DNA of 43,046 nucleotides from Bacillota bacterium. GTDB lineage: Bacteria; Bacillota_I; Bacilli_A; Izemoplasmatales; Hujiaoplasmataceae. The position numbers and the translations under genes were made by a program. Below, piece after piece: positions 28,070 to 43,046 of the stretch; the first letter of the stretch is position 1, and each line of letters starts with the position of its first letter. Location of the stretch: contig QKCT01000102.1 in NCBI GenBank assembly GCA_003245625.1, forward strand, positions 1-43,046, given 5' to 3'. Below the pieces are notes generated by a model, which worked only from the letters and a program-made list of their open reading frames with translations, had not been told where the DNA came from and made no database searches.

Positions 28070-29053
28070 TTATTTGTCACCCATGGTCATTGCCATTACT
28101 GCTTTCGCGGTATGAAGACGATTTTCTGCCTCTTGATATACAATGGAGTGTACTCCATCGATTACAGAGTCTTCCACTTCATTTCCACGGTCTGCAGGAA
28201 GTGCATGCATATATTTCACATTTGGTGCACCTAAGGCTATCATTTCTTCCGTGCATTTCCAACTCTTATAGGATTCTAACAAATCATCGACTACTGCATC
28301 GGATTGATTGTTCACCCAGGAACCCCAATTCTTTGGAATCACAACATCCGCTCCGCGAAATGCTTCTTCCATGTTATGTGTAATTTGAAATGTTCCCCCA
28401 CCGTCAAGTGCATTTTGTTTCGCTTGTTCGATCGCCCATTCCGGTAGATCGTATCCTTCTGGGTATGCAAGAGTGACATCCATTGCATATCGAGGGAATA
28501 AGAGGATTTGGGTTAAAGGAACAGAAATCGGTTTTTTATGGGAAGTAGCGTAAGCCCAAATAATAGAAACTTTAACGCGTTTGGTTTCTCCAAAGACTTC
28601 TTGAATCGTCATCAAGTCCGCTAATCCTTGCATTGGATGATACAGATCATCTTGAAGGCTCATAACAGGTACAGTGGAGTGTTCTGCCATTTCTCTTAGG
28701 TATTTGTTTCCAACACCCCAAAAACAATTTCTGCAGGCAATTCCGTGTCCATAGCTAGAAAGAATTGTAGCTGTATCTTTGGCGCTTTCCCCATGTGAAA
28801 TCTGCATTTTTGAAGTGTCTAGGAATGTTGCGTGCCCTCCGAGTTGGGCAAGTCCTGCTTCCATCGAATTTCTTGTTCTAGTACTTTGTTCGAAGAACAT
28901 TAGAAATGCTGTTTTGTTTTTTAAATATGTCGTGTCTTTGTTCGAGTAGAATTCATGTTTCAGTTGTTTTGATACATCGAGTAATGTATCGATTTCTGCT
29001 TTGGTCCATTCTTGAAGCGTGATGAAATGTTTTCCTTTGAATAATGGTTTCAT
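28070..29053 (-). CDS. ygeW: knotted carbamoyltransferase YgeW
   Basis: A 327-residue member of the aspartate/ornithine carbamoyltransferase superfamily. The carbamoyl-phosphate motif is STRTR (57-61, in FFEQSTRTRNS), and the late HALPADR replaces the HCLP of ornithine enzymes. The neighbours YgeY and the purine genes make YgeW the fitting subgroup. In the purine/ureido pathway it is thought to work in the phosphorolytic direction, giving carbamoyl phosphate from a ureido intermediate. The true substrate is not settled. A carbamate kinase that would turn this into ATP is not in the window. A good AGGAG site precedes the ATG. Confidence 0.85.
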   Translation of the reverse strand: MKPLFKGKHFITLQEWTKAEIDTLLDVSKQLKHEFYSNKDTTYLKNKTAFLMFFEQSTRTRNSMEAGLAQLGGHATFLDTSKMQISHGESAKDTATILSSYGHGIACRNCFWGVGNKYLREMAEHSTVPVMSLQDDLYHPMQGLADLMTIQEVFGETKRVKVSIIWAYATSHKKPISVPLTQILLFPRYAMDVTLAYPEGYDLPEWAIEQAKQNALDGGGTFQITHNMEEAFRGADVVIPKNWGSWVNNQSDAVVDDLLESYKSWKCTEEMIALGAPNVKYMHALPADRGNEVEDSVIDGVHSIVYQEAENRLHTAKAVMAMTMGDK

Positions 29054-29062
29054 ATTTGTCTC

Positions 29063-30271
29063 CTATTTGATTTTATTCATATATATCGAAGGTATTACTG
29101 CGTACATCGCACATGCCTTCACAAGATGATCTTTAAATGTTTTTTCGTTTGGAGCGTGAGCTTCTACTTCCGCTCCTGGACCAAATCCAATACATGGAAT
29201 TTGGTAGCGTCCCATGATGGAAACAGCATTGGTTGAGAAAGTCCACTTATCTACAATCGGTTGTTCTTGGAAAAGCTCTTTGTAGGCATCGACAGTCGAT
29301 TGGCATACAACATGGTCTTCCGGTAAAACCCAAGTAGGAAAATAGGATTTCGTTGGATAAACAAGTCCTGTATATGATGGTCTTGCATATTCATACATTT
29401 CCACTGTAGCACCAACTTTTTGAACAGAAGGTAAGTCTTTGATTTCTTGTAAAGCAGATAAGTATGTTTCTCCGTCCGTAAGACGTCTGTCGATGGAGAT
29501 AGAGCAACCATCTGCGACGGCACATCTCGATGGCGATGAATAAAAGACTTCACTCACCGTTAAGGATCCTTTTCCTAAAAAATCATTATCTAACAATCTG
29601 GTATGCAGTTCTTGAAGTTCTAGTAAGATTGGAGCCATTTTATAGATGGCGTTATCTCCACGTTCTGGTGCAGAACCGTGACAAGAAATACCGGTTGTCG
29701 ATACTTTGATTTCCATACGGCCGCGATGACCGCGATAGATACGACAAGAGGTTGGTTCGGTTATCACCACAAATTCAGGTTTCAACTTGTCTTCTTCAAT
29801 GATATATTGCCAACACAATCCATCACAGTCTTCTTCTTGAACCGTTCCAGTGATGAATAATGTATAATCATCTTCTAAGCCCAGTTCCTTAATGATTTTT
29901 CCGGCATACACCATAGAAGCCATACCACCTTCTTGGTCACTAGCTCCTCGACCGACGATGATTTCTTCATTTTCATATCCCAAATAAGGATCGTATTTCC
30001 AATTTTTGATTTCTCCGATTCCCACAGTGTCGATGTGTGCATCCATTGCGATCACATGCGCCCCATGACCAATTCTCCCAATGATATTTCCCATTGGATC
30101 GATGGTGATTTCATCAAAACCAACCGTTTCCATTTCTTGTTTGATTCTTAAGACAACATCTCTTTCTTCGCAACTTTCACTAGGAATCGCAATCATATCA
30201 CGAAGGAACTTTGTCATATCCGCTTTATATTCGTTGGCCTTTGCCAAAACGGTTTTAAAATCCACTTTCAT
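29063..30271 (-). CDS. ygeY: YgeY family M20 metallohydrolase
   Basis: A 402-residue dinuclear zinc hydrolase of the M20 peptidase family. Metal and catalytic residues are visible: His79 and Asp81 in MDAHIDTVG, Asp112 in [10 protein letters not shown], Glu146-147 in TVQEEDCDG, and a late His in VEAHAPNE. YgeY proteins occur with ygeW and ssnA and probably cleave an amide or ureido bond in a purine-derived intermediate such as a diaminopropionate derivative. The start is ATG at 30271; it lies two bases after the stop of the PLP gene, and its GAGGAA site is inside that gene. Confidence 0.85.
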
Positions 30272-30272
30272 A

Positions 30273-31631
30273 TTATTCCTCACGCATCTGTTGAATCAAG
30301 TTATCATAATGTTGAATCTTCTCATATTCTCCATTCCAGAAATCCATGGATTTCATCGAATCAAGATAATCCTTAGAATAACCAAATTTCAACCAATCTT
30401 TTTCTTTTTGATCGAATAGTTTTTGTTTTTGTTCTTTGGAACGATAATCTGCGATATCTTCTTCTCCAACTTTCAAGAAAACATCTTTGAACCAACGTCG
30501 CAAGACAAAGTCTTCGATTTCTAGATAACGATTTTCCATTTCTTGAATCACGGAATTGTATCGATCAAATCCATCTGTTGCGATGGTAACGACATTATCA
30601 TCTGGCCCTAAACGTAAGTATTTTGCCATTTTAATTGCACCTTGAATATTACAAATTGTAGAGACTCCAAACAAATCTTTCATCGCTACTGCCAATTCTT
30701 TTGGAACTCCTTGTTCAATCAAAATATCAGTGCCATCATGAATGACCTTTAATCCCTTTACACTGTCTTCATCCTTAATTAGTGTAATATAATCCGTATT
30801 CAGTACATTATGAATCAGGGTGCACATTTTATCTCCGATACCCTCGATCCGATGTTGTCCACGACCACCATTGGTCAATGTACTGCATTCATATGGTTCC
30901 AACGCTACGATTTTCGCTTCTGGGAACACGTGTTTGATTTGATCCCCTGCCGCAAGCGTACCTGCGGACCCTGGAGCAGAAACAAAGGCAGCAATTCGAC
31001 TATTTCCAATTCCTTCTACCGCTTCGATACAGGAATTCCCTGTGACGTGACGATGGAAGCGATAATTTGGTAGTAATTCAAATTGAGCCAAAGAACGATT
31101 TTTTGGATCTTCTTTTAGTTCAAATGTACGTTCCAACGTCAAAATAACATCGGATTCACTTCCTGGAGTTAAATCCAGTTTTGCTCCATATTTTTGAATG
31201 CGTTCATAGCGTTCTTTGCTCATATTATCTGGCATAATAACAATTGCATCGTATTTCATTAAATTACAGATATAGCTGACTCCGATCCCAAAGTTACCAG
31301 TGGATGGTCCTAGGATTGTATGTTCTCCCGGTAAAATAGTCTGGTCCACACATCCTTCGATTAAAGTGGAATACGCTGGTCCAACCTTATGGGACCCGGA
31401 TGGAAAATACGTTCCTAACAGTACGACGATATTACAATCGACTCCGGTTAGTTCTTTTGGTAGAACGATTTTATTGACTTGATTGTTTTCGTTCTTCCAA
31501 GTAATGTTGAACAAATTGATCGGATCTAACTCATCCGATTTTGCTTTCAAAGCTTTGGCTCTGATGTCTTTGGCGACCTTGTTGGGATGCAACATCTCTT
31601 CATAGGTTGGTCCAAATGGAATTTTACTCAT
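30273..31631 (-). CDS. fold-type II PLP enzyme in the ygeX position
   Basis: A 452-residue enzyme of the tryptophan synthase beta/cysteine synthase fold. The PLP lysine is Lys82 in [11 protein letters not shown], and the phosphate loop is [10 protein letters not shown] (108-117). A late [10 protein letters not shown] closes the PLP site. The GSHK motif is closer to TrpB-like proteins than to E. coli diaminopropionate ammonia-lyase (YgeX), yet the gene occupies the same place beside ygeY and ygeW. It probably performs an ammonia-eliminating step on a diamino or hydroxyamino acid. The start is ATG at 31631, nine bases after AAGGAG, overlapping the upstream gene by eight bases. Confidence 0.8.
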
Positions 31632-32880
31632 GATGTTTGTCTCCTTCATTGACTTTCATATACTCTATTAATTGTTGTAGATTAGGATCGAGTTCCACCC
31701 AATCTGAAATCGTCTTCATCGCTGATGCTTGATCTTTCAGACCATTTCCAGTCACGATAATTGTGACGGATTCTTCACTGCTAATTTTATCCTCTGCTCT
31801 TGCTTTGATAAACCCTGCAACGGAAGCAGCTGCAGCCGGTTCCGCAAATATGCCCTCTTCTTGTGCTAAAACTTTCATCGCAGATAAAATCTCTTCATCC
31901 GATACTTTGAGATACAATCCCGCAGACTTCTTCACTGCATCCATTCCTTTGATTGGATTTCTCGGAATTCCGACAGCGATACTGTCTGCGATTGTATTCT
32001 CTTCGGTTTCTTCCAAGTCTTTGTCTTCTAAGAAAGCATCCACGAATGGACTACATCCCTCACTTTGAATCCCCATAATTTTAGGAATATGTTGAATGAG
32101 TCCAACTTCATGCAAATCAAAGAAGCCTTTGTAAACACCGCCGATCGTGCAACCGTCTCCTACAGAAACAATAACCCAATCCGTTGGCTCAAAATGAAGT
32201 TGCTCAGCAATCTCTAAAGCAACTGTTTTTTTCCCTTCTACTAAGTGAGGATTGATTGCAGCATTTCGGTTGTACCAACCGTAGTGATCGATTGCGGCTT
32301 TACTGAGTTCAAATGTGGCTTTATAATCTCCTTTGACTTTGATTAGGTTTGCCCCATATATCTTTAATTGCAATAGTTTTCCTAGTGGTGCGCGTTGGGG
32401 AACAAAAATGACCGTCTCAAGACCGAGTTTCGCAGCGTTACCAGCTAAACTCGATGCGGCATTTCCTGTCGAAGAACAAGAAATCGTTTTTTTACCAAGT
32501 TCAAGTGCTTTGACACAGGCGATGACGCTTGCTCGATCTTTGAGTGACTGCGTCGGATTCAATCCGTCGTCTTTGATGTAAAGGTTTTTCGTTTGATATA
32601 ACTTACTTAGGTTTTCGCTATGATAAAGGGGTGTCCAGCCAACCTCTAAGGTATTCTTTGTATATGTTTCTTCCACGGAAAGAAAAGGTAGATAGCGCCA
32701 AATATTATAATTTTGATTGGCTTGAAAATAGGATTTATTGACAACTTGTCGAATTGCATCATAATCAAATTCGATGTCGAGTATCCCTTTTTCTCCACAT
32801 TCAGGACAGGTGAGAAGGTTGGGATCAGGCGACCAAGTTTTGTGACAAATCGTACAACGAAAATCTTTTATATAACTCAT
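31624..32880 (-). CDS. threonine synthase-like PLP enzyme with zinc ribbon
   Basis: A 418-residue fold-type II PLP enzyme. The N-terminal zinc ribbon has Cys9, Cys12, Cys25 and Cys28. NPTQSLKDRAS places the PLP lysine at 113, and SSTGNAASS (135-143) is the phosphate loop. The sequence is of the threonine synthase type. Threonine biosynthesis is unlikely to be its job, as no homoserine genes are nearby and it sits inside the purine operon overlapping ade by four bases (ATGA). It may share a substrate with the next PLP enzyme, for example as a second lyase. Function is inferred from context only. Confidence 0.78.
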   Translation of the reverse strand: MSYIKDFRCTICHKTWSPDPNLLTCPECGEKGILDIEFDYDAIRQVVNKSYFQANQNYNIWRYLPFLSVEETYTKNTLEVGWTPLYHSENLSKLYQTKNLYIKDDGLNPTQSLKDRASVIACVKALELGKKTISCSSTGNAASSLAGNAAKLGLETVIFVPQRAPLGKLLQLKIYGANLIKVKGDYKATFELSKAAIDHYGWYNRNAAINPHLVEGKKTVALEIAEQLHFEPTDWVIVSVGDGCTIGGVYKGFFDLHEVGLIQHIPKIMGIQSEGCSPFVDAFLEDKDLEETEENTIADSIAVGIPRNPIKGMDAVKKSAGLYLKVSDEEILSAMKVLAQEEGIFAEPAAAASVAGFIKARAEDKISSEESVTIIVTGNGLKDQASAMKTISDWVELDPNLQQLIEYMKVNEGDKHHE

Positions 32881-34595
32881 AAATCTTCACCTGCTTCGAG
32901 TGGGATAATCTTGAATTTGCGAACATCAAACAAACCTTTGTCAGTGCATTTTAAATCCGGTATCACAGGTAAGGAAAGAAATGCTAGAACTAAGAATGGA
33001 TCATCGATCTCGTTCTTTACTCCAAGCTCTCTTGCACGTTTCTCCAGTCGTTCTAATTTTTCACTGACAAATTCACCAGATTGATCCGTCATCAATCCAG
33101 CTACTTCCAGTTGGAGATAGTCAAACACCGCTCCGTTTTCCACCAGAACGATTCCTCCTTGAATTTCCTTGATGGTTTGAAGGGCAATCAAGATGTCGTT
33201 TTCATTATCTCCCACAACCACTACATTGTGAGAGTCGTGAGCTACGCTAAGAGCGATTGCAGCGTGTCGTAGTCCATAACCTGATAGCAACGCTTTTCCA
33301 ACGTTACCGGTGTAATGATGGCGTTCAACGACAAACAGTTTCAACAAGTCTCTTGCGTGTTCTAATTCCACATCACCGTTAATAAGAGTGACTTCTTCAA
33401 TGTGTCTTCTGGTTGTAACGTTATTCTTGACTAACTGAATGACATTCACAAATCCACTTTTCAATTGATATTGGAAGCTGAAATCCTCAAGATGAAAATG
33501 GACACTATCGTGTACTTCTTTGTTCTCTATCTTAACAGCTTCAAAGAGAGGTTTCTTGTCTTCTGCGACAAGTAACCCTTTTTTATATACTTTTTTAGGG
33601 ACAATATGATTCAAATCTTCAAATAAGACGAGGTCAGCAAAATATCCGGGAGCGATTGCTCCATGGTGTTTCAGTCCATAGCATTCAGCGATATTAATCG
33701 TTGCCATTTGGATTGCTGAAATCGGGTTTAATCCTTCTTTGATTGCAATATTGATATTATTGTTAATATGACCGACATGAATCATATCGGATGGATGAAG
33801 ATCATCGGAACAAAACAACAACCGACGGAGATAGTTTTCACTTACACCAGGCATCAAATCGATCACATTTTTGGTTTGCGACCCTTCTCTAAGATGAATA
33901 TACATACCGCGTTTCACCTTATCGACTAATTCTTCAGCGTTGGTACATTCATGGTCGGTTTTGACACCGGATAAAACATAAGCGTTCAAATCTTTTCCGA
34001 ATACGGTAGGTGCATGACCATCGATGAATAAGTCTTGATAGGCATCGAGTTTGTCATGAACTTCCTTGTCTCCTTGTATGACACCAGGATAGTTCATCAT
34101 TTCACCTAGTCCGATGACAGTGGGCAATCTCTTTAGTTCTTCTAACTCTTTTGGTCCAAGGATTGCTCCATTGGTTTCAAACGCTGTTGCTGGAACGCAA
34201 GATGGAATCATCATGAAGACATCAAGAGGTACTTTTGCAGCCGATTCAATCATATATTGAATTCCTGTCTTACCGCAAACATTTGCGATTTCATGGCTGT
34301 CTGCTATTACGGTAGTGGTACCATTTGGCATGACTAATTTCGCATATTCTCCCGGTGTGACCATCGAAGACTCAATATGGCAATGCCCATCCATAAAACC
34401 AGGACTAACAAAGAGCCCATGGCAATCGATTTCCTCTTTGCCGTGATAGGTTCCGGTTCCTAAGATAATTCCATTCGAGATTGCGATATCTTCTTCCTCA
34501 ATGGTTTTTGTAAAGACATTAACGATTTTGCAGTTTTTTAGTACAAGGTCTGCAGGGACTTCTCCTCTTGCTTGTTTGATGAGTTCCCGATTCAA
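32877..34595 (-). CDS. ade: adenine deaminase
   Basis: A 572-residue amidohydrolase that deaminates adenine to hypoxanthine. It has SPGFMDGHCHIESSMV (64-79), with the metal histidines, and ADSHEIANVCG (98-108). The usual family motif is DPHEIANV, so a Pro-to-Ser change is seen at residue 100. Its length and the C-terminal domain match Bacillus and E. coli adenine deaminases. The start is TTG at 34595, seven bases after AGGAG. It feeds the xanthine dehydrogenase encoded just upstream. Confidence 0.93.
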   Translation of the reverse strand: MNRELIKQARGEVPADLVLKNCKIVNVFTKTIEEEDIAISNGIILGTGTYHGKEEIDCHGLFVSPGFMDGHCHIESSMVTPGEYAKLVMPNGTTTVIADSHEIANVCGKTGIQYMIESAAKVPLDVFMMIPSCVPATAFETNGAILGPKELEELKRLPTVIGLGEMMNYPGVIQGDKEVHDKLDAYQDLFIDGHAPTVFGKDLNAYVLSGVKTDHECTNAEELVDKVKRGMYIHLREGSQTKNVIDLMPGVSENYLRRLLFCSDDLHPSDMIHVGHINNNINIAIKEGLNPISAIQMATINIAECYGLKHHGAIAPGYFADLVLFEDLNHIVPKKVYKKGLLVAEDKKPLFEAVKIENKEVHDSVHFHLEDFSFQYQLKSGFVNVIQLVKNNVTTRRHIEEVTLINGDVELEHARDLLKLFVVERHHYTGNVGKALLSGYGLRHAAIALSVAHDSHNVVVVGDNENDILIALQTIKEIQGGIVLVENGAVFDYLQLEVAGLMTDQSGEFVSEKLERLEKRARELGVKNEIDDPFLVLAFLSLPVIPDLKCTDKGLFDVRKFKIIPLEAGEDL

Positions 34596-34605
34596 ACTAT
34601 CACTC

Positions 34606-35445
34606 CTAGATTGTGTCTATAAATTGTCTTAATAAGTTCAAACTAACTTGTTTGCGGTATTCCTTATTGGAACGTTGATCGTCAATTGGACGAATATATT
34701 CTCGATATAAAGAGACAATATGCTCTTTATTTTGCTTTAGTTCTTGAACCGTTTTTGTAATGAATTGACATTCGATTTCAGGGTGTCGAACTACGGTGAT
34801 ATTGACGGAACCAAATGCAATCCGAAAATCCATAACCAAATTGTCTTGAATGGTAACAGCACCGGCAAAAGACAATTTACTGATAGCGTCACTTCTTCTA
34901 GGTCCAACTTTACGGAATGTTGCTTTTGTGAAATCGATTTTGTCTAGAATGATTTTGGTAATGATTTCGTTGGGTTCTAAAGCAATTTTACGCACTCCTG
35001 TGATGAACTCTTTGATGTCTACTCGACGTGTTCGATCTTTGGATTGAATTTCCAACATGGCATTCATCAAATATAACGGTACCAAAGAATCTCCGGCAGG
35101 AGATGCATTTGCGATATTTCCACCAAGAGTTCCAGCATGTCGAATCGCTGGAGAAGCCATTTCTAAAATCGTATCTTTTAATAATTTCGGGGTTGCGGGA
35201 TGTTCCAGTATGGATTCTAATGGTTCACAAGCTCCAATCGTGATGAATTCTTCCTCTTCTTGGATTCCTTGTAATTCACTCAGGTTTGCGATATACATGA
35301 CATCTTGTTTGAAGTTGATCGGTAAGGTTTTTAGATTGTGATGTTGAACCAACATATCTGTTCCACCAGCAACCAAACGATATGGATGATTTGCTAGTTC
35401 TGTTAAAGCGTCGGACAAACTTGTAGGGATGTATCCTTCTACCAT
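34606..35445 (-). CDS. xdhB: xanthine dehydrogenase FAD-binding subunit
   Basis: A 279-residue subunit of the CO dehydrogenase flavoprotein type. AGGTDM (26-31) and RHAGTLGGNIANASPAGD (102-119) bind FAD. It passes electrons from the iron-sulfur subunit to NAD or another acceptor. The ATG overlaps the iron-sulfur gene by seven bases. The length is normal for a separate FAD subunit. Naming follows the E. coli convention (A molybdenum, B FAD, C iron-sulfur). Confidence 0.93.
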   Translation of the reverse strand: MVEGYIPTSLSDALTELANHPYRLVAGGTDMLVQHHNLKTLPINFKQDVMYIANLSELQGIQEEEEFITIGACEPLESILEHPATPKLLKDTILEMASPAIRHAGTLGGNIANASPAGDSLVPLYLMNAMLEIQSKDRTRRVDIKEFITGVRKIALEPNEIITKIILDKIDFTKATFRKVGPRRSDAISKLSFAGAVTIQDNLVMDFRIAFGSVNITVVRHPEIECQFITKTVQELKQNKEHIVSLYREYIRPIDDQRSNKEYRKQVSLNLLRQFIDTI

Positions 35446-35912
35446 GTTCCATCACCATCCTTAACTGCGCGTTGAATTGCTTTGATTATCATGTTATATC
35501 CCGTACAACGGCATAAGTTACCAGATAAACCGATCTTAATCTCTTCCTCTGTTGGATTTGCATTTTTATTCAGTAAACTTTCAGATGCAATCATCATTCC
35601 AGGAGTACAGAAACCACATTGAACCGCTCCTTCTTCTTCAAATGCATTCCGTAATATATCATAGCGATGGGTTTGACTAAACCCCTCAATTGTAACGATC
35701 TCTTTATTTATAACATTGGCAATTGGAACGCTACAGGAATTGACAATTTCGTGATTCATGAGCACTGCACAGGCTCCACACTCACCTTCTCCACAACCTT
35801 CTTTGACTCCGGTTAACGAAAAGTCTTCGCGTAAAACGTCCAATAGTCTACGGTTTGGATTGGTGTCCAACTGCACTGGTTTTCCATTTAATTGAAATGT
35901 AATTTTAGCCAT
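35439..35912 (-). CDS. xdhC: xanthine dehydrogenase iron-sulfur subunit
   Basis: A 157-residue subunit with two 2Fe-2S clusters. Cluster one uses Cys40, Cys45, Cys48 and Cys60 (GCGEGECGAC); cluster two uses Cys99, Cys102, Cys134 and Cys136 (CGFCTPGM, GNLCRCTGY). It carries electrons between the molybdenum and FAD subunits. It overlaps both neighbours by seven or eight bases, which suggests balanced synthesis of the three subunits. Confidence 0.95.
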   Translation of the reverse strand: MAKITFQLNGKPVQLDTNPNRRLLDVLREDFSLTGVKEGCGEGECGACAVLMNHEIVNSCSVPIANVINKEIVTIEGFSQTHRYDILRNAFEEEGAVQCGFCTPGMMIASESLLNKNANPTEEEIKIGLSGNLCRCTGYNMIIKAIQRAVKDGDGTW

Positions 35913-37992
35913 GATTTACCAACTCCATTAAGTATTCCGGTGTTGCCGGAATCTTCATGATTCTTTTCTTTATCGCTTGTTCTATCGCTTTGGTAACCGC
36001 CGGTGCCCCTCCGACTAATGTCAGCTCGCCGACGCCTTTTGCCCCATAAGGACCAAATGCATATGGGTTTTCGTATAGGACCGTTTCCATCGGTCCCAAA
36101 TCCATTGCGGTTGGGATGATGTAATCTGTCATATTTTTTTGTTTCAACACACCATTTTCATGGCGCATCACTTCCAAGTACCCATAAGCGATTCCTTGTG
36201 CCAAACCACCGTCTGCTTGACCTAAAACAATTCGCTCATCAATTGCTTTTCCTACATCGTAAACCGACCACGATCCGAGCACTTTGGTAATATAGGTAAC
36301 CGGATCAACATCGACTTCTACGATGTTGATTCCCCAAGAATAAGCTGGATAAGCATCGCCTTGGAAAGTTGCTTCATCGTACTTAATATAAGAAGGTTGT
36401 TCATATTGTTTTTGAACCGTGAATTCGATTTCTTGGAAACGTTCTTTCATCTCTTTGGCTGCTCTAGCAACCAAACCACCAACTATCATCATTGTTCTTG
36501 AAGCAACTGTCGGTCCGGAATCCGGTACGAAATCCGTATCAGGAAAATCAAAAATAATTCGCTCTAAAGGTAATTCTATGATTTCTGCCACGACTTTTCG
36601 CAGGGTGGTACGAATTCCTTGTCCCATATCCACAGCCGCAACCAAAATATGGACGAAACCATCTTTGGTTTTACGTAACTTCACTTTCGCTTTGATATGA
36701 TTGGCTTCTCCTGAACCTGTGAATCCACAACCATGAAAGAACCAACTCATACCAATTCCTTTGTGGGAGGAAGGGTCTTGATACTCTTTATACTTGGTTT
36801 GATAATCAGAGATCTCCATTGCTTTTTCAATCATCTCTTCCATAATAATCGGATCACGGAAGGTACCATTTGTTGAAGTTTTATCCCCTTGTTTCGCTAA
36901 ATGTCTTTTTCTAAAAGTGAGTGGATCAATCCCTAAATCTTTAGCAATATGCTCCATAAACATCTCAACTGCGAAATACATTTGAGGTGCCCCAAATCCA
37001 CGAAACGCTCCATTTGGAACGGTATTGGTTAAATAGACATCTCCGCTAACGTCGAGATGTGGAATCGTGTATGCTCCTGTGCATGCAATTAAAGATCGGG
37101 ATAAAACAACACCGGATAAGCCAATATTCGCACCTGCATCAATACCGACATGTGTTTGAAATCCAAGAATCTGGTTGGTTTTATCAACTGCTGCTTCAAA
37201 ATGAATTTTGGATGGATGGCGCTTTGTGGTGACAAGCATATCTTCTTCTCGATCATACATCATCGATATCGGTTGTTTGATTTTTTGAATGGCAACCGCT
37301 AATTGACAAGCCATCAAAGAAGGGAATTCTTCTTTTCCACCAAAAGCCCCACCAATCGATGGTTGAATGACACGCACTTGATTTTCTTCAACCCCCAAGG
37401 CTTGAATAACAGCGTTTTTCACATAATATGGACATTGTATTGAACCAATTAATGTTACTTTATCATCATCGAGATAGCCGATAAATCCTTGTGGTTCGAT
37501 ATAGGCTTGCTCTTGATATCCGGTTTCATAATCGTAAGAAATGATCTTCTTAGCATGACGGAAAACGCGATTTCCGTCTCCTTTTTCAAAGTGATAGTGA
37601 ATCGCAGAGTTTACCCAATCAAATACTGGTTTTGTTTCTTCATATTCGATTTTTACTTGATCAACCAATTCTTTCACTTTTGCTTTATCTGGTCCTACAA
37701 TCAAAAGAATTGGTTCATGTAAATAGGTTACTTTGTCTGTTGGAAAAATCGGTTGGTCATCAAAGATAATCTTCACAACATTTTTCCCTGAAACATCGTC
37801 AGCACCTACGCTGTAATAGCCATCCGGTAATTCCGGCAGAACGATATTCTTAATCAAACCAGCTGGAATGGAACTTCGCACGGTCAAAGCGTGATGCATA
37901 TGATCTAACTTGATATCGTCAACATACAGTGCTTTTCCTGAAATCTTTTCAGCTGCATCAGTTTTGCGAACAGATTTGCTAATGTCTGACAT
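35905..37992 (-). CDS. xdhA: xanthine dehydrogenase molybdenum-binding subunit
   Basis: A 695-residue catalytic subunit of the xanthine dehydrogenase family, somewhat shorter than typical molybdenum subunits of about 750-770. Motifs include EQAYIEPQGF (161-170), GGAFGGKEEF (214-223), NGAFRGFGAPQ, DMGQGIRTTL, and a C-terminal GVGELTLVGG whose Glu fits the catalytic base. The GYQEQAYIEP pattern is close to that of the E. coli XdhD type found in ssnA-type clusters. No in-frame TGA is present, so no selenocysteine; a labile selenium ligand cannot be judged. The start is ATG at 37992 behind AAAGGAGG; the frame upstream of it overlaps the preA end and is rejected. Confidence 0.92.
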   Translation of the reverse strand: MSDISKSVRKTDAAEKISGKALYVDDIKLDHMHHALTVRSSIPAGLIKNIVLPELPDGYYSVGADDVSGKNVVKIIFDDQPIFPTDKVTYLHEPILLIVGPDKAKVKELVDQVKIEYEETKPVFDWVNSAIHYHFEKGDGNRVFRHAKKIISYDYETGYQEQAYIEPQGFIGYLDDDKVTLIGSIQCPYYVKNAVIQALGVEENQVRVIQPSIGGAFGGKEEFPSLMACQLAVAIQKIKQPISMMYDREEDMLVTTKRHPSKIHFEAAVDKTNQILGFQTHVGIDAGANIGLSGVVLSRSLIACTGAYTIPHLDVSGDVYLTNTVPNGAFRGFGAPQMYFAVEMFMEHIAKDLGIDPLTFRKRHLAKQGDKTSTNGTFRDPIIMEEMIEKAMEISDYQTKYKEYQDPSSHKGIGMSWFFHGCGFTGSGEANHIKAKVKLRKTKDGFVHILVAAVDMGQGIRTTLRKVVAEIIELPLERIIFDFPDTDFVPDSGPTVASRTMMIVGGLVARAAKEMKERFQEIEFTVQKQYEQPSYIKYDEATFQGDAYPAYSWGINIVEVDVDPVTYITKVLGSWSVYDVGKAIDERIVLGQADGGLAQGIAYGYLEVMRHENGVLKQKNMTDYIIPTAMDLGPMETVLYENPYAFGPYGAKGVGELTLVGGAPAVTKAIEQAIKKRIMKIPATPEYLMELVNHG

Positions 37993-38003
37993 GAAATCCT
38001 CCT

Positions 38004-39080
38004 TTACTGAAAACGAATTGCTTTGGTTGGACATTTTGCGATACAAAGTCCACACTCAAAGCATTTTTCCGAATCAAAAGTGATTCTATCTTTCCATTCG
38101 ATAGCGAAATATGGACAAATACGCTCGCATAAGCGACATTTCGTACATTTTTCTTCGATTAAAATTGGTGTGCTTTGTTTGTATACGACACTCTTAGTCA
38201 ATCCGGATTGAATCACTTCCTCGATACTCGCAAAGCCATGTTTCTCCAATGCCTTTGGAAGATCATCAATGATCTTCGAATACAGATTTTTGCCTCGTAA
38301 CAAAGCTGCAGATAACATTTGTACTGCGCTTGCACCTGCGAGCAAGAATTCCAAAACATCATCGGCAGTTGCGATACCACCAACGCCAATGACGGTTAAG
38401 TCTGGCTCGGCTTGCTTAATCTTATATACCGTAGCCAAAGCAATCGGTTTGATCGCTGGTCCGCTCGTCCAAACGAAGCCTTTGTCGTTTCCATAGATAA
38501 TGGAACGATTATCGATATCAATTTTCATCGTTGGACCTAAAGAATTGATGGCTACTACCCCATTTGCTCCTGCTTCTTTAATTGCTTTAGCAAAGCCTTC
38601 TGGGTTTGGAATATGAGGACTAATCTTCATATAAATCGGTTTTGTTGTATTTCTTCGAATCGCTCGAACTGTTTCTTGAATATCGGATAAATTCGTTCCC
38701 ACATAATGGGTCGAGATCTCGAAGGCATCCGCATAGGGATCGACTTTTGGAACTAGAAATTCCATATCATCTTTCGAATACCCCAAAGAAACAATGAGTG
38801 GACGATCCTTTGTTTTATGAAAAGATGGTAAAAAATCATTCAACCATGTTTCATAGGAATGTTCACTCCAAAGTTCCGAGTTCATGATAAATTGATTGTC
38901 ACCATAGATACACGGTTTTGGGATATTAGGTAACGCGACGGAAATGGTTTTCGTAACAATTCCACCACACCCTTCCGAAACTAAAAACTGCAATTTCTCC
39001 AAATCGCCATTTAATGGGCCAGCGGCTGGCATCAATGGATTGGCAAATTCCATCCCATCAAATTGTGTCTTTAAATTCAA
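38004..39080 (-). CDS. preA: PreA-like flavoprotein with two 4Fe-4S clusters
   Basis: A 358-residue protein. Residues 1-305 form a dihydroorotate dehydrogenase-like FMN barrel (FANPLMPAAGPLNG near the start, and VIGVGGIATADDVLEFLLAGA). Residues 309-358 hold two ferredoxin-type clusters: Cys312, 315, 318, 322 and Cys340, 343, 346, 350. This is the layout of PreA, the catalytic half of bacterial dihydropyrimidine dehydrogenase, but its partner preT is absent. In E. coli-type purine clusters the related slot holds YgfK. A role in reducing an oxidised purine ring is a fair inference. The start is TTG at 39080 after AAGGGATG and overlaps ssnA by 23 bases. Confidence 0.85.
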   Translation of the reverse strand: MNLKTQFDGMEFANPLMPAAGPLNGDLEKLQFLVSEGCGGIVTKTISVALPNIPKPCIYGDNQFIMNSELWSEHSYETWLNDFLPSFHKTKDRPLIVSLGYSKDDMEFLVPKVDPYADAFEISTHYVGTNLSDIQETVRAIRRNTTKPIYMKISPHIPNPEGFAKAIKEAGANGVVAINSLGPTMKIDIDNRSIIYGNDKGFVWTSGPAIKPIALATVYKIKQAEPDLTVIGVGGIATADDVLEFLLAGASAVQMLSAALLRGKNLYSKIIDDLPKALEKHGFASIEEVIQSGLTKSVVYKQSTPILIEEKCTKCRLCERICPYFAIEWKDRITFDSEKCFECGLCIAKCPTKAIRFQ

Positions 39081-40383
39081 AGTTCATCCCTTCTTTCTCT
39101 ATCTTATCCCAGCATTTCTGTGCTAGTTTTTTTGCATTTTCTTGTTTTTCTAACCAAGCATGATCGACTGTAAAGTCTTTTACTTTGGCGATTCCGTTGA
39201 TAAATACATTCTTTGGCTTTAGGTTAGGGAACAAACCAAAGAATACATGTCCAAAGATATTTCCCTCGTGAATCGGAGTGAATTCCTGATAAGGAACGGT
39301 AATAAAATCACTGACATACCCGGTAGATAATTTTCCCAGTTTAATGTGAAGAATGTCTCCGGCATATTCGAATGATGTGAGAATTGACTTTCTTATTGCA
39401 TCTAACCCAAGAGCGGTCGCATTTTCCTCACGATGATGGGCTGTGTAGTAGGCATTCAGATACTCTACTGGCATGGATGACAGTAGTCCATCGTTCCCAA
39501 TAAACCACGGTATTCCTTTTGCTTCTATCGATGCTAAAGGCGGTAACCCCACCGCATTATTCAAATTGGATGTTGTATTCACAACAATCTTGGATTTTGT
39601 CTTTTGAATGATGGACAATTCCAACTCGTTCACATTGGTACAATGCACCAACAGACTCTTCTCATTTAACAATTCAAACCGATTAAGACGTTCAATCACA
39701 GATTCATTGAAATGATTGTTTGTCCATTCTTCGTCGTACTTGCTTTCTGCCACATGAATGTGAATCCCGCTTTGACCAAGTTGTTGCTTTACTTTTAGAA
39801 GCGTTTCTTCGCTTAATGTAAAGGAAGCATGAAGACCAAATAACCCTGCTACAAAAGGCCCTCGGTATTTCTTGATAAAGTCACTGTTTTCTTGAATCGT
39901 TTCATCTACTTGAAAGCGATCGCTTGTTTCAAATGCAAGAATTGCTCGTTGACCGATTCCATCAACTACTGCAGCCTTAATCCTCTCCAATGAGCCTTTG
40001 ATTTGACCGCTTGCGTGGTGATCAATTAGGGTAGTACTTCCGGCCATAAGTTGATCTAGTGCAAAGGAAAACGCAGAAGCTTCAACCATATCCAATTCCA
40101 AGAAGTGGTCGAGTTTCCACCACAGTTGTTCTAATATATCTTGGAAAGTTTTGGGATTGTATGGAACAGATAAACCTCTTGCAAAGGCAGAGTATAAATG
40201 TGTATGTCCCGCAACAAATCCAGGTAACACGATTTGTCCTGAAACGTCGAACACTTCGTCTGCTTTTGTGATATCAAAGAACTCCATCGACCCGGTTTCT
40301 AGTATCGTTTCATCAAACAGAATGTATTGATTTTCCTTATAGGTGCGATAGTCATATGTTCTCGCATTGATCAATGCTTTCAA
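39058..40383 (-). CDS. ssnA: SsnA-type amidohydrolase
   Basis: A 441-residue amidohydrolase of the metallo-dependent family. GFVAGHTHLYSAFARG (about 55-70) carries the metal histidines. HIHVAESKYDEEW, LLVHCTN and a late FIGNDGLLSS supply further ligands. The GHTHLYSAFARG form is characteristic of SsnA, found in purine-degradation clusters, where it is thought to deaminate or open a purine-derived ring. The start is TTG at 40383, eight bases after GAGG; a GTG at 40392 touches that site. It lies between the hydantoinase and preA. Confidence 0.85.
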   Translation of the reverse strand: MKALINARTYDYRTYKENQYILFDETILETGSMEFFDITKADEVFDVSGQIVLPGFVAGHTHLYSAFARGLSVPYNPKTFQDILEQLWWKLDHFLELDMVEASAFSFALDQLMAGSTTLIDHHASGQIKGSLERIKAAVVDGIGQRAILAFETSDRFQVDETIQENSDFIKKYRGPFVAGLFGLHASFTLSEETLLKVKQQLGQSGIHIHVAESKYDEEWTNNHFNESVIERLNRFELLNEKSLLVHCTNVNELELSIIQKTKSKIVVNTTSNLNNAVGLPPLASIEAKGIPWFIGNDGLLSSMPVEYLNAYYTAHHREENATALGLDAIRKSILTSFEYAGDILHIKLGKLSTGYVSDFITVPYQEFTPIHEGNIFGHVFFGLFPNLKPKNVFINGIAKVKDFTVDHAWLEKQENAKKLAQKCWDKIEKEGMNFEFKDTI

Positions 40384-40393
40384 TCGATTCACC

Positions 40394-41680
40394 TCAAATC
40401 TTTTTGCCTAGTTGATAATTAAAAGTCATATTTCGTACTAGGAATTTTCCCCGATGCATCGTATGGACAACACGTCCTTTTCTCATGCATCCTTTATATA
40501 CGCTATAATCCGTGAATCCGTGGAAATCATCAATGATGTTTTCCATCAAATCATATACAAATAAGTTTGCTAATTTCCCTGGTTCTAAAGATCCACGATC
40601 TTCTAGGTTGTAGAGGGAACAGAGATTACTGGACATTTTTTCGATTATTTTTTTCTCAAAGAGTCGGTACATGATATCGAAGGAATATTCAATTCCTCCA
40701 ATACCGAGTGGAATATCTTTTAATAAGTAATGGTTTTTATCATCTATAAAGAAAGCACAATGGTCCGTTCCTATCGCAAAAATGTCATGGAAATGCTCTC
40801 TCAATTTACACATTTCTTCTTTGCTGCGAAGAGGTGGAGCCAAGGTATACAAGAATCCATCTTCTTTTTGCACTTCGTCTGAAGTGAATACAAAATAATG
40901 AGGGCAACTTTCTAAAAAGAAACGTTTGTTTAAAATATCAGAATAATCTGCCTTTAATTTCTCAATGGTATACCCGGATGATACATGGACCATATATAAA
41001 TATCCGCCATGCTCCCGAACAAATCCAGCCAGTTTAAGAGCTTCTTTTGTTTCTGCAATATTCGGTCTGGAACGATTTAAGTCCCGGAAGGTAAATTCAT
41101 CATTTGTAGTGATTAAATCATCATCTTCGATATGCGCCAAAAGCAGGAACTTGTATTTTTCTGAAAGTTCCAATAATTGGATGATGGCATCATCATCGGT
41201 TCTTCTTCCGGAGTCGGAATACGTCGTAAATAATTTTAGGGATTGAATTCCCAGTTCTTGCATTTTTAAAACAAATTCTTCCAGATTACACTTTGGATTC
41301 TTGATGGTTGCGTGGAAGAAATAATCAACACAGGAATTCTTTGCTTCTTCCATGCGTTTTCGATAAGCGGACTCTAGATCGTTTGGATTATCAACTGGAT
41401 CTAAAAAATCAATGATTGTTGTTACTCCTCCAAAAGCAGCTTGAATCGAACCAGATAAAAAATCATCACGAGAATGAATCTTTCCTAAATCAAGATTGAA
41501 ATGGACATGTGGATCGATCAACGCAGGCAGAATCAAAGAATCAGAAGCATTTAGGGTTTCCTTCGCTTCTAGGATTTCAGACGAAATATCTTTAATTCGT
41601 TCTCCTTCAATATAAACATGTTTTTTTTGGAATGTGCCGTTTTGATAAACGAGTCCATTCATGATCCGTATGTCAAACAT
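40394..41680 (-). CDS. hydantoinase / dihydropyrimidinase-type amidohydrolase
   Basis: A 428-residue cyclic amidohydrolase. Visible are IDPHVHF (55-61), the probable carbamylated Lys149 in SLKLFTTY, LAHIEDDD (181-188), HVSSGY, and GTDHCAFF. It would hydrolyse a ring amide such as an imidazolone- or hydantoin-like intermediate. E. coli has the comparable HyuA/YgeZ in its purine cluster. True D-hydantoinase substrates cannot be inferred. It starts with ATG at 41680 after GGTGAT, four bases from the upstream stop. Confidence 0.85.
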   Translation of the reverse strand: MFDIRIMNGLVYQNGTFQKKHVYIEGERIKDISSEILEAKETLNASDSLILPALIDPHVHFNLDLGKIHSRDDFLSGSIQAAFGGVTTIIDFLDPVDNPNDLESAYRKRMEEAKNSCVDYFFHATIKNPKCNLEEFVLKMQELGIQSLKLFTTYSDSGRRTDDDAIIQLLELSEKYKFLLLAHIEDDDLITTNDEFTFRDLNRSRPNIAETKEALKLAGFVREHGGYLYMVHVSSGYTIEKLKADYSDILNKRFFLESCPHYFVFTSDEVQKEDGFLYTLAPPLRSKEEMCKLREHFHDIFAIGTDHCAFFIDDKNHYLLKDIPLGIGGIEYSFDIMYRLFEKKIIEKMSSNLCSLYNLEDRGSLEPGKLANLFVYDLMENIIDDFHGFTDYSVYKGCMRKGRVVHTMHRGKFLVRNMTFNYQLGKKI

Positions 41681-41684
41681 ATAA

Positions 41685-42167
41685 TCACCCGCTTATGATT
41701 TGATATTCCTTGATTGCAAAATGGGATAATACTTTTTCTACTAGATCTTCTCGAACGGAGAGGAAAACATCGATGCCAGCTTCCAAAGCAGTTTGAATTT
41801 GTTTGGAAAAACCGCGATGAGATAATTCCAGTTTCCCTACTTCGTCGAAATAAAGTGGAGATACTCCTTCTTCAATCCAATGTTTATACAATGAATTGAT
41901 CCTTTTCTCTGCTGCATGATAAATCAAATAAGGTCCAATTTTTCCTTGAAAATCCACGCCTTCATCAAAGCCTTGCGTTTGCTTTTCATGAAGTAAATAA
42001 GGAAATTCTGTTCCGTCTTTTAAGACATAGGCATTGAATCCAAAAACATCACTTCCAATCATATACTTTTTGGATACAATTCCGTTCCCCAGATGAGTTT
42101 TCTCGTAGAGTTCTTTCATTCTGGTTGTTTTACCAGAATTCATTTTACCAATAACGATATGTACCAC
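41685..42167 (-). CDS. THEP1-like P-loop NTPase
   Basis: A 160-residue protein with a Walker A GKMNSGKTT (7-15) and a Walker B-like FDEVGKLEL (107-115), the arrangement seen in nucleoside-triphosphatases of the THEP1/NTPase_1 family. The start is GTG at 42167, eight bases after AGGAG; a GTG at 42176 is too close to that site. It overlaps the XdhC-type maturation gene by 23 bases. A role in molybdenum-enzyme maturation or nucleotide handling is suggested only by its position. Nothing in the sequence shows its target. Confidence 0.75.
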   Translation of the reverse strand: MVHIVIGKMNSGKTTRMKELYEKTHLGNGIVSKKYMIGSDVFGFNAYVLKDGTEFPYLLHEKQTQGFDEGVDFQGKIGPYLIYHAAEKRINSLYKHWIEEGVSPLYFDEVGKLELSHRGFSKQIQTALEAGIDVFLSVREDLVEKVLSHFAIKEYQIISG

Positions 42168-42978
42168 AATAAACACTCCTCATGTGGGAATGATTTTCTT
42201 TACCGTGTGAAATTGCGAGAATTTCAGAAGTAATCGAAATGGCAATTTCTTCGGGACTGCTTCCACCCAAATCTAAACCAATCGGTGCATAGAAATAAGA
42301 TAGATCAATATCCTTTCCATGAGCTTCATATGTGGCATCCAAATAGGTTTCCAATTTTTGAGGAGAACATAACATTCCCAGATATTTTGGTTTTAATCCA
42401 AGTTCAATAATCTTGTTTATAACATGATAATCATATTTATGGGATGGGGTACAAACAATGATGAAGCTATCTTCTTTCAATCCTTCCTTTTCAATGAAGG
42501 TAACAAAAGATTGTTCGACCAATCTGTCTGCACCTTGGAATGATTGAAGCACTTCCTTTCGGTCATCAATGACCGTTACGTGGAACGGCATTGTCTTCAG
42601 CACTTTGGATAATGCTTGGCCTACATGTCCGGCTCCAAAAATATAAATGGTTTCTTTCGGACCGTTGTATTCATAATATAATGTTACTTTTCCTCCACAA
42701 GCCATCGGCAAAGTATGAGACTCTGGGATGATTTTCCCTTCATCTAATAAATATGTTTCCAAGAGATTCTTGCGTTCTTGTAGTAAGGATTTTGAGCGAT
42801 TGATTGCATAATGCTCGAGAGCGCCTCCACCCACAGTACCAATACTTTTTCCATCTTCTGTTACAATCATTTTTTTACCGACTTCTACAGGACCGCTGCC
42901 TTCTTTGGCAACCGCAGTCACCAACATAAGATTGGTGTTTTGTTTCCGGTAAGTTGTCAGTAATTCATAGATATCCAT
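42145..42978 (-). CDS. XdhC/CoxI-type molybdenum enzyme maturation factor
   Basis: A 277-residue protein. The N-terminal XdhC/CoxI domain has VEVGKKMIV and GTVGGGALEH (48-56) and PMACGGKV (91-98). The C-terminal Rossmann domain has IFGAGHVGQALS (113-124) and the ending GLDLGGSSPEEIAISI. Such proteins hold the sulfurated molybdenum cofactor and insert it into xanthine dehydrogenase. This is a different protein from the iron-sulfur subunit that shares the xdhC name in E. coli. It starts 13 bases after the stop of the gene at the right edge. Confidence 0.92.
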   Translation of the reverse strand: MDIYELLTTYRKQNTNLMLVTAVAKEGSGPVEVGKKMIVTEDGKSIGTVGGGALEHYAINRSKSLLQERKNLLETYLLDEGKIIPESHTLPMACGGKVTLYYEYNGPKETIYIFGAGHVGQALSKVLKTMPFHVTVIDDRKEVLQSFQGADRLVEQSFVTFIEKEGLKEDSFIIVCTPSHKYDYHVINKIIELGLKPKYLGMLCSPQKLETYLDATYEAHGKDIDLSYFYAPIGLDLGGSSPEEIAISITSEILAISHGKENHSHMRSVYCGTYRYW

Positions 42979-42991
42979 CTTTGTTTTCCTG

Positions 42992-43046
42992 TTACAGCAA
43001 TAATGTTAAAGCAATTGCGACCAATAAGGAAGCGGTTGAAATCGCT
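42992..43046 (-). CDS. C-terminus of a membrane protein, probably a nucleobase permease (runs off right edge)
   Basis: The minus strand has an open frame from the right edge to TAA at 42992. Its last 17 residues read AISTASLLVAIALTLLL, a typical transmembrane helix. The ending resembles that of NCS2-type purine/xanthine permeases, and such a transporter would fit at the head of a purine-degradation operon. Only the helix is seen, so the transporter identity is a guess supported by context. The stop lies 13 bases from the next start. Confidence 0.4.
   Translation of the reverse strand, partial: AISTASLLVAIALTLLL

Follow-up and report, generated by a model that had tools for sequence, protein, structure and literature searches.

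Which ring does the iron-sulfur flavoprotein encoded at positions 38004-39080 reduce, and from where does it draw its electrons? An earlier note on this DNA had described the protein as PreA-like, as replacing YgfK without the PreT partner, and as possibly fed by ferredoxin or by the xanthine dehydrogenase (XDH) encoded next door. The stretch that was analysed, called the window here, has 43,046 nucleotides and is the entire contig C28 of a draft genome of 1.85 Mb (118 contigs, around 90% complete). It is likely, in our assessment, that the gene encodes a ferredoxin-dependent reductase of the UacX type acting on yanthine (2,8-dioxopurine), by which an anaerobic bacterium would break the aromaticity of a purine ring derived from uric acid. 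The protein is a further UacX, an enzyme type first described in 2025, and not a new kind of system. The assignment is based on architecture and operon position, with the UacX of C. difficile compared by its description only.

The open reading frame is a convincing gene. Its start has AGAAGGG just 5' of it, and the frame overlaps the 3' end of ssnA. A start codon (ATG, TTG or GTG) stands at the start of the match in 17 of the 20 homologues checked, and none was seen there in the other three. In the uacX of one relative (G045), an in-frame stop that had been reported was not seen in the translated match, where the sole stop is the terminal one. Residues 3-278 match PF01180 (DHO_dh), which gives a barrel of the DHO-dehydrogenase/DPD type with FMN, and Fer4-type repeats follow at about residues 306-356. 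The cluster cysteines, C312/315/318/322 and C340/343/346/350, are invariant in 47 sequences, and so are N67 and E69. The FMN barrel fused to two 4Fe-4S clusters, claimed in the earlier note, is thus borne out; the protein has a single 2[4Fe-4S] domain and is without an FAD/NAD(P)H module. The features of the gene are as follows.

38004-39080, minus strand: uacX-like gene, 358 aa, TTG start
38205-39074, minus strand: FMN-type TIM barrel, residues 3-292 (PF01180; PDB profile match to PyrD B and DPD)
38010-38168, minus strand: 2[4Fe-4S] ferredoxin-like domain, about residues 305-357, with eight invariant Cys
38697-38714, minus strand: S123-T-H-Y-V-G128, shortened active-site loop without the catalytic Cys of DPD/PreA/PyrD
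38874-38882, minus strand: N67-S-E69, aligned with N-x-E (609-611) of pig DPD

The gene belongs to a minus-strand operon with intergenic gaps of -32 to +11 nt, whose other members are given below in order, uacX standing between ssnA and the xdh genes.

42145-42978, minus strand: XdhC/YqeB-like molybdoenzyme maturation factor
41685-42176, minus strand: NTPase_1 family protein
40394-41680, minus strand: hyuA-like hydantoinase/dihydropyrimidinase
39058-40392, minus strand: ssnA-like aminohydrolase, directly upstream of uacX with a 23-nt overlap (score 326, cut-off 444)
35905-37992, minus strand: xdh large (Mo) subunit (xdhL), XdhA-like, with a gap at the XdhD Glu606 position
35439-35912, minus strand: xdh [2Fe-2S] subunit
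34606-35445, minus strand: xdh FAD subunit
32877-34595, minus strand: adenine deaminase (612 bits, cut-off 472.5)
31624-32880, minus strand: PLP enzyme, threonine-synthase-like
30273-31649, minus strand: PLP enzyme, cysteine-synthase-like by family scan, candidate terminal lyase
29063-30283, minus strand: ygeY (691 bits, cut-off 321.5)
28070-29053, minus strand: carbamoyltransferase, candidate for the YgeW role, 36% identical to E. coli YgeW (181 bits, below the YgeW cut-off of 500)

The XDH genes that had been noticed next door are indeed there, since the genes of the Mo, [2Fe-2S] and FAD subunits adjoin uacX. For the two PLP enzymes (30273-31649 and 31624-32880), the best models are those of cysteine synthase and threonine synthase, and not that of diaminopropionate ammonia-lyase, so that the pathway may end with another lyase in this organism. 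The name 'ygeX' for 30273-31649 has no support in the family scan.

This set of genes resembles a pathway described by Li et al. in 2025. In E. coli, XdhD-YgfM converts urate to yanthine, YgfK and SsnA carry out the reduction, and HyuA, YgeW, YgeY and YgeX then follow (PMC12507026). The same work reports that in C. difficile YgfK is replaced by UacX, a PydA homologue without the FAD domain, which converts yanthine with reduced methyl viologen and SsnA, and for which ferredoxin is proposed as the donor (PMC12507026). The window protein shares with it the PydA-type FMN barrel and Fe-S clusters, the absence of an FAD domain, the ssnA cluster and the place of YgfK. Unlike C. difficile, where XdhD is described without YgfM and UacY replaces YgeW (PMC12507026), the genome of the window has an FAD subunit in both of its XDH complexes and a carbamoyltransferase in the cluster. 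The C. difficile XDH loci, as treated in PMC11448449, leave the verdict unchanged.

In the proposed mechanism, uric acid would first be converted to yanthine by an XdhD-type molybdoenzyme, encoded on contig C39 of the same draft. Reduced ferredoxin, for example from pyruvate:ferredoxin oxidoreductase (PFOR), would pass single electrons to the C-terminal [4Fe-4S] pair, and from there they would reach the FMN in the barrel, where yanthine would be reduced to its dihydro form. SsnA would then hydrolyse the reduced ring and so pull an unfavourable reduction forward, and HyuA, the carbamoyltransferase and YgeY would process the products further. UacX would, in this way, fill the job of YgfK without an FAD/NADH module, and among yanthine, urate, xanthine and uracil the first is, by analogy with the C. 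difficile enzyme, the likeliest substrate. The family scores count against this reading to some extent, as neither YgeX nor YgeW is clearly encoded and SsnA stays below its cut-off.

The replacement of YgfK, as claimed earlier, holds by position. Between ssnA and xdhL, relatives encode either UacX or a protein of 1,003-1,014 aa, which is YgfK by its TIGR03315 score (1,318-1,342 bits, cut-off 835.3). Two genomes of the same genus as the window, G002 and G004, carry a YgfK of 1,003 or 1,009 aa there. YgfK was seen in the uacX slot at L041 6747-9758, L051 10619-13663 and L042 2504-5533. UacX is present in 40 of the 61 genomes (37 full, 3 partial) and YgfK above the cut-off in three (G002, G004 and G059), with a C-terminal YgfK piece at a contig edge in G050. 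The two were never found together, and 17 genomes, some of them incomplete, have neither. In the own genome of the window, no YgfK scores above 835.3; the best match has 302 bits and covers model positions 440-888. The two reductases share the operon slot and, by published work on relatives, the reaction; they differ in the FAD/NAD(P)H part that only YgfK contains. BLAST gives no match between the window protein and YgfK at E 1e-3, and one UacX (L097) matches it over 157 aa at E 4e-7.

How often the slot has changed hands was judged from a tree of xdhL with 70 rows, namely the window, the four YgfK genomes and those 65 of the 80 named loci whose xdhL ORF measures 640-780 aa. The UacX rows are interrupted by YgfK rows at two points, and the tree requires a minimum of three UacX/YgfK changes. 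The tree came from a quick search and the clustering of the labels is weak (21 of 500 shuffles were as low), so that only the minimum of three is claimed. The YgfK of G002 shares 83.2% identity with its counterpart in G059, which belongs to another family, and 77.7% with the one in G004 of its own genus, whereas for xdhL the values are 64.7% and 74.5%. This reversal suggests that ygfK moved horizontally into the slot.

The absence of preT, for which a search of the whole genome had been proposed, was upheld in the draft of about 90% completeness, contig C39 as the probable continuation of the cluster included, and also in two UacX relatives with single-contig genomes, G021 (96% complete) and G027 (94%). 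Among the 61 genomes, E. coli PreT finds nearly full-length matches in G046 (50% identity, 425 bits) and G042 (49%, 415 bits); the next score is 209 bits at 37%, with short partial matches of up to 40%. PreA exceeds its cut-off in the same two and in no other of 90 genomes (633.6 bits for the true PreA of G042), and PreT adjoins PreA in both. In the 80 named loci, 37 of which reach 20 kb, no ORF has a PreT-, NfnB-, AegA- or YgfK-type best match.

NAD(P)H could still reach the enzyme through a shared, unlinked flavoprotein, for example NfnAB or a 668-aa PRK13984-like protein, which we consider unlikely. The own genome does encode NfnAB homologues and has four Fer4_20 proteins (the NfnB homologue, the 668-aa protein, a truncated one of 456 aa and one of 895 aa), and in G021 and G027 an NfnB homologue adjoining NfnA is the only Fer4_20 protein. 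Each of the four, however, adjoins another likely partner, NfnA for the NfnB homologue, a NuoD-like protein for both the 668-aa and the 456-aa one, and a HypB-like protein for the 895-aa one, and none of them comes near the identity of a true PreT. The labels NfnA, NfnB, NuoD-like, HypB-like and guaD are presumptive; the naming of the NfnA/NfnB pair agrees with NCBIfam matches.

An unlinked GltD-like flavoprotein of PreT size (411-417 aa) was also observed in three UacX genomes, G010, G013 and G020, away from uacX and in a similar neighbourhood (L203 3618-4853, L204 3933-5186 and L205 3788-5023). Its neighbours there are, presumably, NUDIX, YitT-like and Lon genes. Matches of similar size to the PreT search occur in other UacX genomes as well, a further such stretch being L206 of G015. 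These proteins and matches count against the ferredoxin-dependent reading, as do the incompleteness of the own draft and the single 2[4Fe-4S] domain of UacX against the two described for PydAc.

Ferredoxin is nevertheless the best-supported cellular donor. We infer it from the missing FAD/NAD(P)H module, the failure to find PreT, the precedents of PydAc and C. difficile UacX, and PFOR, which is encoded in the own genome and occurs in 36 of the 40 UacX genomes. PFOR is found in all four YgfK genomes too, so genome content does not decide the donor. In the published discussion, a commentary treats the donor of XdhAC, which initiates the pathway, as an open question (PMC12990295).

The PydAc of Clostridium chromiireducens, which works with reduced ferredoxin (PMC7332683), resembles the window protein: both join an FMN barrel to a ferredoxin domain, lack an FAD/NADPH part and have no Pyr_redox partner nearby. 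PydAc differs by reducing uracil, by its place in a Pyd cluster and by having, as described, two ferredoxin domains and up to 16 Fe (PMC7332683); the window protein has eight cluster cysteines, not 16, and a purine cluster. A likeness to E. coli PreTA and mammalian DPD is also evident, as the FMN and C-terminal Fe-S half of pig DPD aligns nearly full-length. The predicted structure (pLDDT 91.8) aligns with pig DPD 531-1005, which is this half, over 351-355 of its 358 residues, with Z 35.9-37.7 and rmsd 2.3-2.4 among the DPD rows listed. Unlike these enzymes, the window protein has no PreT/FAD half and no cysteine in the active-site loop, and its group is separate from PreA.

The loop that carries Cys671 in DPD is around twelve residues shorter in UacX and has no Cys, the exact partner of Cys671 differing between two DPD alignments. 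It reads STHY in 79 of 79 UacX rows, a count to be read with the fact that the named rows were selected, in part, by a pattern containing this motif, and also in 17 homologues found by protein search. Three PreA rows have FSCP, and eight PyrD rows have ISCP. From the alignment, the acid catalyst may be Thr124 or His125, and the shorter loop may make room for the bicyclic purine.

These data bear on another possibility, that the protein is a pyrimidine-reducing DPD (PreA or the ferredoxin-dependent PydAc) sitting by chance in a purine operon. The domain order is shared with PreA and PydAc, N67 and E69 have their counterparts in the N-x-E of pig DPD, and the identity to E. coli PreA is 28.5%; still, such an accident of position is quite improbable. 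The NCBIfam PreA score is 148.8 bits against a cut-off of 335. A tree of 25 rows, limited to UacX (14, from the window and its relatives), PreA (3) and PyrD (8), gives three separate groups with 99-100 support. The Cys-bearing loop is shortened and without its Cys. Moreover, uacX alternates with YgfK and has ssnA as its 5' neighbour in 77 of the 78 named loci (of 80) where it was called, the remaining one (L085) having an unassigned ORF of 160 aa. The description 'PreA-like' stands for the architecture and falls for the family: PreA/PreTA membership was rejected on the score, the tree group, the loop and the failure to find PreT.

For the ferredoxin-dependent yanthine reductase, the proposed source of yanthine lies beyond the window. 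The cluster of relatives extends to a second XDH of the XdhD type, and the own copy starts contig C39. This contig (L039 1-5042) opens within the gene of the XdhD-type Mo subunit; next come those of the 2Fe-2S and FAD subunits, then a gene at the place of MocA and one for a 5'-nucleotidase. Two of its 13 called ORFs match the window XDH subunits, and the others match no window protein. By comparison with relatives, the cluster probably continues past position 43046 onto C39, with roughly 1.3 kb seemingly missing in between. Glu606 of XdhD, proposed from modelling (PMC12507026), is present in all five aligned large subunits of the second XDH, the C39 copy included, and its position is a gap in the window XDH, in three homologues of it and in E. 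coli XdhA. On this residue argument, uacX probably adjoins the XDH that oxidises purines, and the genes of the XDH that reduces urate probably lie further up the cluster, outside the window.

Another reading is that the neighbouring XDH donates electrons directly, so that hypoxanthine or xanthine oxidation pays for ring reduction in one complex. Here xdhL is the next ORF 3' of uacX in 70 of the 78 loci, and the arithmetic of the published steps fits, as the four electrons set free on the way from hypoxanthine to urate equal the four used from urate to dihydroyanthine. One paper also speculates that the Fe-S proteins encoded in a cluster of this type act for XDH (PMC10470597). We regard direct donation as very unlikely, however, because the same XDH genes flank YgfK, which carries its own NAD(P)H module, and because XDH has its own FAD subunit. 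In addition, the XdhD-type FAD subunit, not xdhL, follows uacX in three Clostridium loci, and the XdhD-type enzyme takes up electrons in the pathway as published. Of the two electron sources in the earlier note, ferredoxin was strengthened and XDH, for which adjacency is the argument, was not; purine oxidation and ring reduction may be coupled only in the sense of an overall redox balance. A closed, carrier-free purine dismutation from the adjacent XdhA-type XDH to UacX, within a single complex and with the catalytic cysteine replaced by a Thr or His acid, is highly improbable.

The ferredoxin-dependent reading also gives a likely function to a gene in a locus already known by another name. 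The named-genome scan found 144 relatives, of which 80 were kept, at 61-91% identity. Most are drafts that go by the names Izemoplasmatales/Izimaplasma, Acholeplasmatales, Mollicutes or Bacilli; some are Clostridia, including three Clostridium genomes at 61-62%, and the names point to an Izemoplasmatales-related group for the window genome. Wasmund et al. describe 'xanthine-degradation loci', alike to some Clostridium loci, in marine, DNA-degrading Izemoplasmatales (PMC8289736). A cluster with XDH, adenine deaminase and other genes is reported as up-regulated in an isolate on DNA plus RNA (PMC10470597) and in one with thiosulfate (PMC8397711). The main text of Li et al. does not mention Izemoplasma, Mycoplasmatota, Tenericutes or Mollicutes (PMC12507026), and our literature search found no paper joining the Izemoplasmatales locus to the reductive uric acid pathway. 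The published locus probably is this pathway, which links it to the one known from gut bacteria. This reading, the at least three UacX/YgfK slot changes and the STHY loop are what is new here. The ferredoxin-type and NADH-type reductases alternating in one slot among closely related genomes offer matched pairs for the study of donor choice in anaerobic purine use, and the loss of the catalytic Cys raises the question of the acid catalyst in purine-ring reduction.

Some minor observations concern the cluster itself. A promoter scan was uninformative (34 sites against 44.6 expected by shuffling), and terminator-like sites (25 against 10.3) lie mostly inside genes. The order differs in the Clostridium loci L132, L136 and L138, which have a YgeV-like regulator, ssnA, uacX, the XdhD-type XDH, a mocA-like gene and then the window-type XDH. 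Lastly, a membrane-like protein of 209 aa without a Pfam match at 1e-5 is encoded between the XdhC/YqeB-like gene and the XdhD-type subunit (L040 11146-11775, minus strand), and its homologues occur in 45 of the 80 named loci.
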